From Archaeoglobus sulfaticallidus PM70-1 (GTDB taxonomy: Archaea > Halobacteriota > Archaeoglobi > Archaeoglobales > Archaeoglobaceae): DNA of 64,000 nt. Below are positions 52,698 to 59,323 of the stretch, in pieces (within the stretch, counting starts at the first letter, position 1; each line of letters starts with the position of its first letter). A program made the position numbers and the translations under genes. The stretch lies in the NCBI RefSeq assembly GCF_000385565.1, contig NC_021169.1, positions 1,656,571-1,720,570 of the forward strand, given 5' to 3'. Below the pieces are notes generated by a model. That model saw nothing but the letters and a program-made list of their open reading frames with translations, made no database searches and was not told the origin of the DNA.

Positions 52698-53864
52698 CTA
52701 AAGCCTATCTATTTCTCTTAAATAACTCCTTCTGGATCTAACAACTTTTTCCAGCTTCTTGGCTCTCTGAATTTTCTCTATTTTTCTGAATTTTGATCTG
52801 CCATTTCCATTTTCAAAATTCGCTTCCTCTTCTATCAGATTTCTTGATATTATGTTCGGCGATGACACTCCAGTCATTATAGCCATTACTCTCACACAGC
52901 CCTCCATCTCCTTCGATATTCTGGCACCCCATATGACATTCGCAGCATCGTCAATCTCGAAGGTCAGGTTGTTCACGATCTCTTCAGCTTCCTTTATTGT
53001 GAGATCTGTGCCACCACTCAGGTGTATCAAAGCCCCTTTCGCCCCTCTGTAATCCACCTCGAGGAGCGGATGATTCAGGCAGTCCTTGACGACATCCTTT
53101 GCCTTGTTCTGAGACCTCGATTCCCCAACAAGCATCACCGCAACTCCGCCCTGTCCCATAACAGCCCTCACATCCGCAAAGTCTATGTTCATTAGAGAGG
53201 GCTGGGTGATAGTATCAGAGATTCCTTTTATTGTCTCCGAGATAAGCTGATCCATGACGCTAAAAGCCTGCTCTATCGGCAAATTAGGAACATACTCCAG
53301 AAGCTTGTTGTTGTCCAGAACTACAACCGTATCAGCCTGCTTTCTTAGCTCTTCAAGGCCCTCTTCAGCTTTTTTTATCCTCGCTCTCTCCACCCTGAAG
53401 GGCGTCTGAACCATTCCGATAACAATCGCTCCCTGCTTCTTCGCAATCTCAGCAACAACAGGAGCGCTTCCTGTTCCAGTGCCGCCCCCCATGCCCGCAC
53501 AAACGAATACCAGATCTGCCCCGCTCAAAAGCTCTTCAAGTGTTCCTCTAGCCAGCTCGGCAGCCTTCCTACCAATTTCAGGATAGCCTCCTGCTCCTAA
53601 TCCCTTCGTGAGCGTTCTTCCAATCAAAACTCTCTTATCCGCCTGAGTATTCAACAAATGCTGCTTATCCGTATTTATTGCAATCGTGGTTACACCTTCA
53701 ACTCCAAGCTGCTTCAGCCTAGTTATCGTATTATTACCACTACCTCCACACCCTACCACAATGATCTTCGGCAGACCGTATTCCTCGATGTCGAAATTGC
53801 TGCTCATCCTCCTGTTTCTCTCTTCCATATAATACTTCTGGGCTTCACTTACAAGAGACTTCAT
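52698..53864 (-). CDS. ftsZ: Cell division GTPase FtsZ
   Basis: A tubulin-family GTPase of about 388 residues. It shows [15 protein letters not shown] (phosphate loop), the tubulin signature [20 protein letters not shown], and a T7-type [20 protein letters not shown] loop that activates the neighbouring subunit. The C-terminus is basic rather than the usual conserved peptide. ATG 53864 is chosen, after GGGGGGTT; an in-frame ATG at 53882 overlaps the stop of the preceding gene. It forms an operon with the small ribbon-helix-helix gene upstream. Confidence 0.95.
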
Positions 53865-53878
53865 ACAAACCCCCCAAA

Positions 53879-54052
53879 TCATGTAAAGGTGCTAAACTTC
53901 TGGATTCTTTCAAGCACCTCAGCTTTCTCAGTAATTAGCTTCCTGATCGCATCTCTAATCGCTTCGCTAACCGAGGGATATTCCCCCGCAGCCACCAAAG
54001 CTTCAAGAATTTCATAATGCTGTTCCGTCAATCTCAAAGATATCTTCTTCAT
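53879..54052 (-). CDS. CdrS-like ribbon-helix-helix regulator upstream of ftsZ
   Basis: A 57-residue protein beginning [20 protein letters not shown], with [13 protein letters not shown] completing a MetJ/CopG-type ribbon-helix-helix fold that would dimerise on DNA. In haloarchaea the short ribbon-helix-helix protein CdrS is encoded with and controls ftsZ2; size, fold and position match here. Its stop (TGA 53879-53881) overlaps the in-frame ATG at 53882 of the ftsZ frame. GGGTGG precedes ATG 54052. The role is inferred by synteny and fold. Confidence 0.8.
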
Positions 54053-54066
54053 ACTCCACCCTCTGT

Positions 54067-54153
54067 GGGTGACCGGGGTGCTCCTCCCGCCGCACCACCG
54101 TGAGCCTTACGTCACCCTTCTGTCCGACAGAAGTATGACGCCATCGTATTTAA
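54067..54153 (-). promoter_or_regulatory. Promoter, palindrome and structured leader of the cdrS-like/ftsZ operon
   Basis: On the minus strand CCTTAAATAC (TATA at 54147-54153) predicts transcription starting near 54124. There a perfect 7-bp palindrome, CTTCTGT-CGG-ACAGAAG (54117-54133), overlaps the start site, like an operator. The ~70-base leader can form GGGTGAC (54111-54117) paired with GTCACCC (54067-54073), with GGTGC/GCACC nested inside. Confidence 0.55.
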
Positions 54154-54263
54154 GGATTTTGGTTTAACTATGATGATTGTTAATTTAAATTACAAATAAT
54201 AATAATTTGATTGTTCTATATTAAAATAGCAAATTATTTTTACACACAGACCGATGAAAGATC

Positions 54264-56340: not shown

Positions 56341-56859
56341 CTACCAATTATCGAGGAGCTTTTTCACATCCTCCTTTGAGATTTCCTTTTTCTTTTCCTC
56401 CTCGACGATTTTATAGACTTCTGGCTGGTATCCGAGCTTATCTCCATAAAGCTCAAAGACATACCTGGCTGCGAGCATTGCAATTTCATGCATCTTCATC
56501 TTAACTCTCGAATCCTCAAGCTCGATCTCCTTCTTTCTGCTTCTATCAACGTAGTCCACACAGAACAGGCATTTATACGGGTTTAAAGGTTCTGGCTTTC
56601 TGTCTTCAAATAAATCCCCGAGAGTTTCAAGGGCACAGTATGATCCGTCGCTGTACTTGCATTTTACCCCCCTCTCCTTCGCTATATTCATCGCATTGCT
56701 CACGAACTCGTTAACACTGACCGCCGGCTTTCTATCTCTCCTGAGAAAGTACCACTCTACCAATGCGTTAATGAACTCGGATGGCGAAACTCCCGCAGCG
56801 TTGCATTTCTCGAGCAATTTCTTCTCCACATCGGGAGGTATATCGATCGTAATTCTCAT
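56341..56859 (-). CDS. Ribbon-helix-helix protein paired with actin-like gene
   Basis: 172 residues: an N-terminal CopG-type ribbon-helix-helix (MRITIDIPPDVEKKLLEKCN, then VSPSEFINALVEWYF), a middle with Cys (KCKYSDGSYC, YKCLFCVDY) that could hold a metal, and a helical acidic end. It lies 44 bp downstream of the actin-like gene on the same strand. In plasmid ParMRC systems ParR is a ribbon-helix-helix DNA binder encoded right after the actin ParM, so this may be the adaptor; the length and Cys cluster are unlike known ParR. Confidence 0.65.
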   Translation of the reverse strand: MRITIDIPPDVEKKLLEKCNAAGVSPSEFINALVEWYFLRRDRKPAVSVNEFVSNAMNIAKERGVKCKYSDGSYCALETLGDLFEDRKPEPLNPYKCLFCVDYVDRSRKKEIELEDSRVKMKMHEIAMLAARYVFELYGDKLGYQPEVYKIVEEEKKKEISKEDVKKLLDNW

Positions 56860-56903
56860 CCAGACAAAAATTAATTTAAAATTTTATAAATCTTTAGCCA
56901 AGC

Positions 56904-57902
56904 CTATTTCTTCTTCTTTTTAGATTCTTCCTTCCCCTGATCCTTCTGCTCTTCAGGCGTTTCAGCCTTTTCTTCAGGTGTCTCTCCAGAATAGACCTTG
57001 GCCAGCGTGTAATATCCAAGGGCGTTTGCTTTCATCGGATCCTTTGGTGTTGAGATCGTACCAACATCCTCAAAGCTCTTCCTGAACTCCTCAAACACTC
57101 CCGGAAGTGCGCTTCCCCCGCCAGTCAGTATGATGTTATCGACTATTGTTGTGGATAATCCTTCCACTATCATCTTTGCTCTGTTGGCTATCCTTTCTGC
57201 CCATGATACCATTAAATCCCTGTAATCCTCAATTATGTCTCCATGAGATACGGATATTCTCTTCCCACCTCTTATCCTTCCAATCTCGAAATTCTCGTTC
57301 ATAAGAAGCATTGTCATCTCTTCAGGAGTTAAGCTGATTCCAGCCTTATTCCTTACCGTAACCTCAAGGTTCTCATACAGCCTGTCAACACCCATTAGAA
57401 GTGTATCCCCCTTTAGATACTCCATGTGGCTTATCACGACAATATCTGTCGTTCCAAAACCGATGTCTATGCAGACTCCTGTCTCAACACCCATGTGTGC
57501 CATCGTCCCAACTGGCTCTGGAAAAAGCAGAACCTTGGCCTTTAGCTCGGTTTCGAGACTCTTAACAACATCCTCCCTCTCCTTTCTCGATGATTTTACA
57601 GGCAAGCCTGTAGCAATGATCGCATCGTTTACATCCAGCGTTTTGAGAGCATGCTTCGCAAGCTCGAGATACGATTTATGCATAACCCTTCCTTCATGAA
57701 GTGGTCTGAGTATTTCGACATTCTCTACGTTCTGCACGATCGTGAGAGCTTCATCTCCGATGTAGATGTCCTTGTGACTCGCTTTAAGGCTCCAGTCTCT
57801 CTCCTCTCCAAAAACAACCAAGCTTGGAAAGGTGAGAACCTCCTTGCCATCTGCTGTGGTTTTCGTGTAGTTCGTGCCAATGTCCAACCCTACTGGCTTC
57901 AT
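56904..57902 (-). CDS. Archaeal actin-like ATPase (ParM/Ta0583-type)
   Basis: About 332 residues with all actin-fold nucleotide motifs: phosphate 1 VGLDIGTNYTKT, connect-type FPEPVGTMAHMG, phosphate 2 CIDIGFGTTDIVVISH, and adenosine IILTGGGSALPGVF. It belongs with the single-chain archaeal actins and ParM, not MreB or crenactin. The C-terminus is a charged, low-complexity tail ending in five Lys. ATG 57902 is preferred, after AGGAGAAGC. It likely forms filaments; a cargo-segregation role with the adjacent ribbon-helix-helix gene is inferred. Confidence 0.82.
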   Translation of the reverse strand: MKPVGLDIGTNYTKTTADGKEVLTFPSLVVFGEERDWSLKASHKDIYIGDEALTIVQNVENVEILRPLHEGRVMHKSYLELAKHALKTLDVNDAIIATGLPVKSSRKEREDVVKSLETELKAKVLLFPEPVGTMAHMGVETGVCIDIGFGTTDIVVISHMEYLKGDTLLMGVDRLYENLEVTVRNKAGISLTPEEMTMLLMNENFEIGRIRGGKRISVSHGDIIEDYRDLMVSWAERIANRAKMIVEGLSTTIVDNIILTGGGSALPGVFEEFRKSFEDVGTISTPKDPMKANALGYYTLAKVYSGETPEEKAETPEEQKDQGKEESKKKKK

Positions 57903-57934
57903 GCTTCTCCTGAAAGTTAACATTATTAATAAAT

Positions 57935-57967
57935 TTAGCTATCACTTAGCTATCACTGGCCTATCCC
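57935..57967. repeat. Short iteron-like repeats upstream of the actin gene
   Basis: TTAGCTATCAC at 57935-57945 is repeated exactly at 57946-57956, and a weaker third copy (TGGCCTATCCC) follows. They lie directly upstream of the TATA-like AAATTTATTAATA of the actin gene, where an autoregulator or partition adaptor would bind. Confidence 0.55.
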
Positions 57968-57994: not shown

Positions 57995-59323
57995 CTACTC
58001 CGCCCTTACGGACGGAGCTTCTACCTTCAAGGGCTTCTGCCCTATCATCGGTAGTTCGGGCTGGTTCACAGCAGCCCCCGCTCCTTTACGGAGCGCTTTA
58101 GTTAGACCAAACTTAAGGATGTTCTTAGCGGCATTAACGTCTCTGTCATCCTCATAACCACATTCAAGACATCTAAAGTGTCTATCGTTAACTTCCGTTT
58201 TCTTTGAACCACATTCAGAACACTGTTTGGTTGACATCCATTCGTTAACGATTATTGCTATGTTGTTGTTCTCCATCAACTTAGTCTTTAAAATTTCAGC
58301 AAATTCACGAAAAGCCCAGTGATTTATGCGTTTTCTGTTTTTACGATGTCCAGAACCTTTGTAGTGTTTATCCCTCACGTGGGAGGGATGTCCTATGAAA
58401 ATCAAGCAATTACTGAACTGTCTTACAAGTTCAACTGCCAGTTTCCTGCGGAAGTCCCTTGCATAGTTTCTCCTCTTATGCCTTAGCTTCTTTAAAATTC
58501 TGTATTTTCTCAATCTTTGCAGTTTGCCTATTCTGTTGTTTAATCTTCTCATCCGAATGAAGAACTCTTTGTATTCTTCCTTTGAGAAGAGGAGAACACG
58601 GTTCTCCTCTCCGTTAGTTTCGTATGCAGTTATTATCCTTTTTAAACCCAAATCTATTCCCACCAATCTTTTAGGCTTAACTACCACCTCCTTTTCAACC
58701 ACAACATGAACTTCATATCGCTTAAGCTTGCTCCTCCAAACAATCTGGAAGGATTTTATCGACCAACTTTTAAGGTGTTTTTCAGCATAAGCATAGGAAT
58801 GTAGCGGGACGTCAATTCTCTTACCCTTCTCAAGCGTTGAAATCCTCATCCAGAGCTTGAACTCCTTAGCTGAATAAGAGAACTCGATTGAGCCAACACG
58901 ATAGTCAAACATAACAGGAATTTTACCCATAATGGTTGGTAAGGATGGTTCTCTCTTCTTCAATCGATATAGTTTGTGTTCAAGCTTTTTACGCTTATGC
59001 TTATCCATACATCGCTCAATCTTTCGTTCAAGTTTAACAACCTCTTTCTGCCACTCCCTGTGAAGTTTCTTGTAAGATTTGTACATCCACAAAGCTTTAT
59101 CTCTGCAGGCTTGAGCGAAAGCAGAGGGTAAGCCAGTTATCTGCTGGATTTCTTTTCTAAATTGCTCAGCCTCTTTTAATGAAGTAATATCGTTTTCGAT
59201 GATTTTATCAAGGAATATATGAACACCGTAAGTAAGCCGAGCAGTTAATCTGTCAAGTTTCTCAAGCTTTTCTTGGGTTATTTTATCTGAAACAGGTATT
59301 TTAATCGTCTTTTGCACTTTCAT
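57995..59323 (-). CDS. tnpB: TnpB-family RNA-guided nuclease with displaced RuvC-II glutamate
   Basis: 442 residues, intact. RuvC-I Asp224 in LVGIDLGLKR; RuvC-III Asp395 in DRDVNAAKNI; zinc finger CSECG (368-372) and CLECG (385-389). The usual RuvC-II Glu position reads LIFIGHPSHV without Glu; instead Glu361 in IIVNEWMSTKQCSECG stands just before the zinc finger. The C-terminus EAPSVRAE is encoded by the right-end hairpin, as where omega RNA overlaps tnpB in known elements. It cuts DNA guided by that RNA if typical. It overlaps the small upstream ORF by 23 bp. Confidence 0.9.
   Translation of the reverse strand: MKVQKTIKIPVSDKITQEKLEKLDRLTARLTYGVHIFLDKIIENDITSLKEAEQFRKEIQQITGLPSAFAQACRDKALWMYKSYKKLHREWQKEVVKLERKIERCMDKHKRKKLEHKLYRLKKREPSLPTIMGKIPVMFDYRVGSIEFSYSAKEFKLWMRISTLEKGKRIDVPLHSYAYAEKHLKSWSIKSFQIVWRSKLKRYEVHVVVEKEVVVKPKRLVGIDLGLKRIITAYETNGEENRVLLFSKEEYKEFFIRMRRLNNRIGKLQRLRKYRILKKLRHKRRNYARDFRRKLAVELVRQFSNCLIFIGHPSHVRDKHYKGSGHRKNRKRINHWAFREFAEILKTKLMENNNIAIIVNEWMSTKQCSECGSKKTEVNDRHFRCLECGYEDDRDVNAAKNILKFGLTKALRKGAGAAVNQPELPMIGQKPLKVEAPSVRAE

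Follow-up and report, generated by a model that had tools for sequence, protein, structure and literature searches.

The leader of the cdrS-ftsZ2 operon of Archaeoglobus sulfaticallidus PM70-1 carries a row of two-fold-symmetric 7-bp boxes (GTCnGAC) that recur roughly every helical turn (10-11 bp). Comparison with related leaders shows that this array has been kept across archaeal classes. Its first box lies between the TATA box and the start site, its last close to the start codon. We propose that the leader is the operator of the operon, to which dimers of the cell-division regulator CdrS probably bind cooperatively along one face of the DNA and thereby repress their own synthesis. Such a phased array appears to be new, i.e. 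apparently undescribed in the literature (open-licence papers only). The analysis started from a stretch of 64,000 nucleotides, referred to as the window, which is contained in a closed genome of 2,076,931 bp. The features discussed are listed in Table 1.

Table 1. Positions of the cdrS-ftsZ2 features within the window
Feature	Position	Strand	Basis
ftsZ2-type FtsZ gene	52698..53864 (first-ATG ORF to 53882)	-	TIGR00065 436 bits; probable start M7
cdrS-like gene, 57-aa ribbon-helix-helix protein	53879..54052	-	ORF list, RHH_1 match, ftsZ adjacency in relatives
Box 7 GTCACCC (degenerate)	54067..54073 (centre 54070)	-	11-bp phase
Box 6 GGAGCAC (degenerate)	54078..54084 (centre 54081)	-	11-bp phase
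Box 5 GTGCGGC (degenerate)	54089..54095 (centre 54092)	-	11-bp phase
Box 4 GGCTCAC (degenerate)	54100..54106 (centre 54103)	-	pattern of boxes 2-4 single in genome
Box 3 GGGTGAC (degenerate)	54111..54117 (centre 54114)	-	in phase with boxes 2 and 4
17-bp palindrome CTTCTGTcggACAGAAG	54117..54133	.	sole exact copy within the window
Box 2 GTCGGAC, palindrome core, at predicted start site	54122..54128 (centre 54125)	-	TGTC(G/C)GACA in 50/50
Box 1 GTCATAC, between TATA and start site	54133..54139 (centre 54136)	-	phase, relatives
TATA-box-like CTTAAATA	54147..54154	-	conserved TTTAAATA/TTTATATA in relatives

The cdrS gene and its ftsZ2 neighbour

An earlier note on this DNA had pointed to a 57-residue ribbon-helix-helix (RHH) gene ahead of ftsZ. 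The open reading frame is indeed present, and its product matches RHH_1 with 34.9 bits against a cut-off of 20.5. With 57 amino acids the protein comprises little beyond an RHH domain and its gene lies immediately 5' of ftsZ2, both of which are characteristic of CdrS. The haloarchaeal CdrS model NF058555 is its top NCBIfam match (42.9 bits), below the equivalog cut-off of 100 bits. As this model is named for the haloarchaea, and the cut-off is exceeded in only one of the five control genomes that register, the low score argues against a haloarchaeal-type CdrS and not against orthology. An AlphaFold model of the protein (pLDDT 85.5) is nearest to ParD and NikR RHH domains (best Foldseek E 0.048, the E-values being weak because the domain is short), and a profile search against solved structures leads to the same families. 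We rejected an identity as a ParD antitoxin for want of an adjoining toxin gene; the neighbours of cdrS are ftsZ on one side and a divergent UPF0047/YjbQ gene on the other.

The FtsZ adjoining cdrS can be assigned to the FtsZ2 type. It shares 61-69% identity with the cdrS-linked FtsZ proteins of methanogens and haloarchaea and 49% with haloarchaeal FtsZ1, while the second FtsZ of the genome (locus L053) is 64% identical to FtsZ1. The overlap of cdrS with the ftsZ frame that had been described before exists only if ftsZ begins at its first ATG (53882). A start at M7 (53864) is more likely, as this ATG is preceded by GGGGGG and many FtsZ homologues begin to align at residue 7; it lies 14 nt past the cdrS stop, so that the two genes do not overlap.

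A cdrS relative is present in 50 of the 59 Archaeoglobi genomes, and ftsZ is found directly 3' of cdrS at all loci examined, i.e. 50 of 50 in Archaeoglobi, 25 of 25 in methanogens and 14 of 14 in haloarchaea. Five weaker RHH matches (L201-L205) have no ftsZ downstream and were taken to be other RHH proteins. The proposal that the gene is a CdrS orthologue outside the haloarchaea, to which a lack of the small ORF beside ftsZ in relatives had been named as a possible objection, is thus borne out by FtsZ2 synteny at every orthologous locus and by the CdrS model as best, if sub-threshold, NCBIfam match. Together, the sequence data support the small gene as the CdrS orthologue of the Archaeoglobi, and cdrS and ftsZ2 are presumably co-transcribed. 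An orthologue beyond the haloarchaea is no new claim, since Darnell et al. (2020, PMC7439475) had already described the cdrS-ftsZ2 pair from every major archaeal group other than DPANN. A requirement of CdrS for normal cell division has been shown in haloarchaea only (PMC7439475, PMC8406309).

The helically phased array of the leader

The earlier note had also described a 17-bp palindrome where transcription should start. Its centre lies ~26 bp downstream of the TATA-like box, and archaeal transcription is expected to begin about that far past TATA, which agrees with the proposed position. As the operator unit, however, the palindrome does not hold. A search of related genomes recovers the extended form in only 2 of 50 Archaeoglobi relatives, while the core TGTC(G/C)GACA is found in all 50 leaders. 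We also discarded the palindrome as a genome-wide motif, as its 116 matches in the genome (three mismatches allowed) are close to the 95 of a control pattern and give no clear signal. The unit is instead the symmetric 7-bp box, which recurs with each helical turn; the longer palindrome is best read as a local extension of one array box.

When the leaders are placed side by side, the core is seen to belong to a series of 7-bp units spaced 3-4 nt apart. A chain model places 5-11 units per leader, and because such a model can overfit, a separate test of periodicity was made. Across the 50 related loci, G.....C frame pairs are over-represented at distances of 10-11, 21-22 and 32-33 bp, with z=22 at lag 11. 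This is further supported by letter identity in 21 representative leaders, which peaks at lags of 10-11 and 21-22; these peaks are absent in far-upstream DNA and in coding sequence, the latter peaking at lag 12. Taken singly, not every locus shows significant periodicity. The part of the leader 3' of the strong boxes is still periodic (z ~10 at lag 11). The first GTCnGAC box is centred 15 bp past the TATA centre in 31 of 46 Archaeoglobi leaders, as is box 1 of the window, and at 25-30 bp in most of the others.

In the window the array comprises seven boxes at exact steps of 11 bp, most of them degenerate. That five of the seven match only four of the six consensus positions counts against the array model; we accept them because of their phase and the leaders of the relatives. 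Periodicity in the window's own leader alone is significant (p=0.0005).

In methanogens the first box is located at or past the expected start site. Distances of 11, 22, 33, 44, 55 and 66 bp between boxes are over-represented in 25 leaders (z ~10-50), with a single minor extra distance of 41 bp. We then derived a content-blind profile from windows chosen by phase alone, every 11 bp counted from the first box. At period 11 this yields aTGTC(A/T)GACAa, with an information content of 6.2 bits compared to 0.65-1.7 bits at periods 8-10, 12 and 13, and the period-11 profile is itself two-fold symmetric (r=0.94). Two-fold symmetry together with helical phasing points to dimers bound on one face of double-stranded DNA.

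The pattern formed by boxes 2-4 occurs once in the genome, at cdrS, as judged by pattern searches, which degenerate arrays elsewhere might escape. A strict double-box pattern has 30 matches in 59 Archaeoglobi genomes and a triple-box pattern 27 in 61 methanogen genomes (class of G161), and every one of them lies in a cdrS leader; these counts include overlapping matches and related genomes and therefore show location rather than independent events. Upstream of this genome's own ftsZ1 (L053), no GTCnGAC-type boxes were seen. The genome also encodes a CdrS-like RHH paralogue of 61 aa (L087 1501..1686, genome 1493117), which directly precedes a membrane-protein gene resembling, by eye, queuosine-precursor transporters. 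No boxes were seen upstream of this paralogue.

The likely binder and its proposed mode of action

Liao et al. (2021, PMC8406309) used ChIP-seq to locate CdrS at 18 sites in Haloferax volcanii, with a symmetric motif. One of these sites is ftsZ1, at -50 relative to the start site. We find two GTCnGAC-type boxes exactly 11 bp apart in 28 of 30 haloarchaeal ftsZ1 promoters (0.13 in shuffles), and no other spacing is comparably frequent. The pair lies 62-68 bp 5' of the start codon, just upstream of the BRE/TATA-like region. Because these pairs stand where CdrS ChIP-seq maps, CdrS is the best candidate for the array binder and likely recognizes GTCnGAC boxes, the ChIP motif being equated with the box pair by gene, approximate position, length and symmetry. 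A search of ten haloarchaeal genomes gives several matches of the pair pattern in each and none of a reversed control. Among the targets of the pair pattern are DUF7139 genes, one CetZ and, in several genomes, ftsZ1. The pairs are located 42-45 bp before the start of the DUF7139 genes (L211, L312, L314), which are predicted CdrS targets, and, in one haloarchaeon, upstream of the CetZ gene (L304 168..1346).

According to the model that we favour, each symmetric 7-bp box of the cdrS leader would take one CdrS dimer, with the dimers aligned on one face of the DNA. While CdrS is low, the operon would be transcribed. With rising CdrS, dimers would first occupy the strong box at the start site and then spread over the weaker ones until the filled array blocks initiation or early elongation, so that CdrS and FtsZ2 would be held at a set level. 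Here CdrS as the binder, cooperativity and repression are the parts that we infer. Repression is suggested by the boxes covering the predicted start site, and cooperative loading by RHH precedents (SvtR, and ParR on 11-bp repeats). Once filled, the array would be expected to block initiation or early elongation, so its most likely effect is autorepression that depends steeply on how much CdrS is present. A conserved, sequence-defined operator of this kind would bear on how division-protein levels are set in FtsZ archaea outside the haloarchaea. The box code also marks haloarchaeal ftsZ1 promoters, which would permit CdrS targets to be predicted in any genome and is testable in vitro.

The autorepression model has to be weighed against haloarchaeal ChIP data. 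The cdrS promoter itself is missing from the H. volcanii CdrS list (PMC8406309), which counts against autorepression, while the Halobacterium RHH protein CdrL has its only ChIP-seq peak at cdrS-ftsZ2 (PMC7439475). Moreover, the leaders of haloarchaeal cdrS genes have another pair, GTAAGACnnnnGTCTTAC, whose spacer is sometimes 3 or 5 nt; in each of the six genomes having it, the exact form is found a single time, at cdrS. The array could thus be the operator of another regulator, with CdrS acting elsewhere, and this seems partly true in haloarchaea, where CdrL binds the cdrS promoter. As an account of the array it is unlikely, since CdrL is reported from haloarchaea only (PMC7439475) whereas the array is found in Archaeoglobi and methanogens. 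In addition, the GTCnGAC pair is present at ftsZ1, a ChIP-mapped CdrS target, and the arrays adjoin cdrS, as would be predicted for an autoregulator. This suggests that in haloarchaea CdrL may have taken over an old autoregulatory site, the box of which has changed, while CdrS would have kept the ancestral GTCnGAC boxes at ftsZ1 and other genes.

CdrS might also bind the array and activate or tune the operon instead of repressing it. What has been reported in haloarchaea is activation and not autorepression: loss of CdrS lowers ftsZ expression, and CdrS is described as activating ftsZ2 in Halobacterium and, in H. volcanii, as a probable activator of ftsZ1 (PMC7439475, PMC8406309). The boxes of haloarchaeal ftsZ1 fit this activation, as they lie upstream of the BRE/TATA region. 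The cdrS boxes, in contrast, start after TATA and extend over both the start site and the leader, the usual position for repression, and we regard activation through the array as rather improbable.

Nearly all boxes are transcribed and the leaders fold well (window z=-2.17), as would be expected if the leader acted as RNA, with protein-bound repeats or a hairpin controlling translation or termination. In one Archaeoglobi genus group (leaders L027, L028, L033, L036, L037, L039, L041-L044, L046 and L047) a 14-bp hairpin lies 5' of the cdrS start codon, with 8 pairs changed on both sides, and there it may add a layer of RNA-level control. We consider this reading of the array itself very unlikely. 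The box has its two-fold symmetry at the level of DNA, box 1 is upstream of the predicted start site, and the haloarchaeal ftsZ1 pair lies upstream of the TATA region and hence outside the ftsZ1 transcript. Furthermore, the hairpin is lineage-specific, and an Rfam search gave nothing at gathering score.

At 2.5 kb from cdrS, the window harbours an actin-like gene of the MreB/ALP families, with a gene of 172 aa following it (56341..57923, minus strand). The N-terminus of the latter's product looks RHH/MetJ-like by eye, with no Pfam match, and the two genes are a possible chromosomal ParM/ParR-type pair. Just upstream of the actin-like gene there is a perfect 11-bp tandem repeat, TTAGCTATCAC (57935..57957), which could be an operator, a parC-like site or the end of a TnpB-like element (57995..59323).

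Comparison with known systems

Dimers of RHH proteins cooperatively occupy adjacent boxes to repress, as seen for the met boxes of MetJ and the operators of Arc and CopG. These operators usually have few boxes, whereas cdrS leaders have up to ~10 that span the leader. Among archaeal viruses, SvtR and AvtR are RHH repressors, and SvtR is thought to load along the DNA from a strong site (PMC5569661). These proteins are viral and recognize other motifs, and that paper describes no phased array of boxes kept across classes. The aCcr1 protein of Sulfolobales is an RHH regulator of cell-division genes that controls cdvA of the ESCRT-type division machinery (PMC7617429). It differs in its target, cdvA rather than an ftsZ operon, and the aCcr1 model barely registers the 57-aa protein (15.2 of 60 bits).

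In array and gene order the locus resembles, by analogy, the ParMRC- and TubZRC-like partition loci, in which the adaptor protein that binds the iteron array also contacts the cytoskeletal filament. ParR of plasmid R1 (ParMRC) is an RHH protein that binds 11-bp direct repeats 5' of its operon, which is autoregulated (PMC9426499). The cdrS locus shares with it the RHH protein, the 11-bp repeats and the cytoskeletal gene in the operon; the partner is FtsZ and not the actin ParM, and the likeness is one of arrangement rather than of sequence relation or centromere role. We give little credence to the notion that CdrS on the array forms a ParR/parC-like helical body that also touches the FtsZ2 encoded next to it, by which the locus would mark the chromosome or couple it to the division ring; if true, this would represent a centromere-like element of a chromosomal tubulin system predating the haloarchaeal CdrS network.

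CdrS as known from Halobacterium salinarum and Haloferax volcanii is likewise among the closest systems. The locus described here differs in the long GTCnGAC-type array of its operon leader and in the lack of visible boxes before its ftsZ1, and the haloarchaea add CdrL. In common are a small RHH protein encoded directly before ftsZ2 and the GTCnGAC-type box, which is present as a pair at the haloarchaeal ftsZ1 gene targeted by CdrS.
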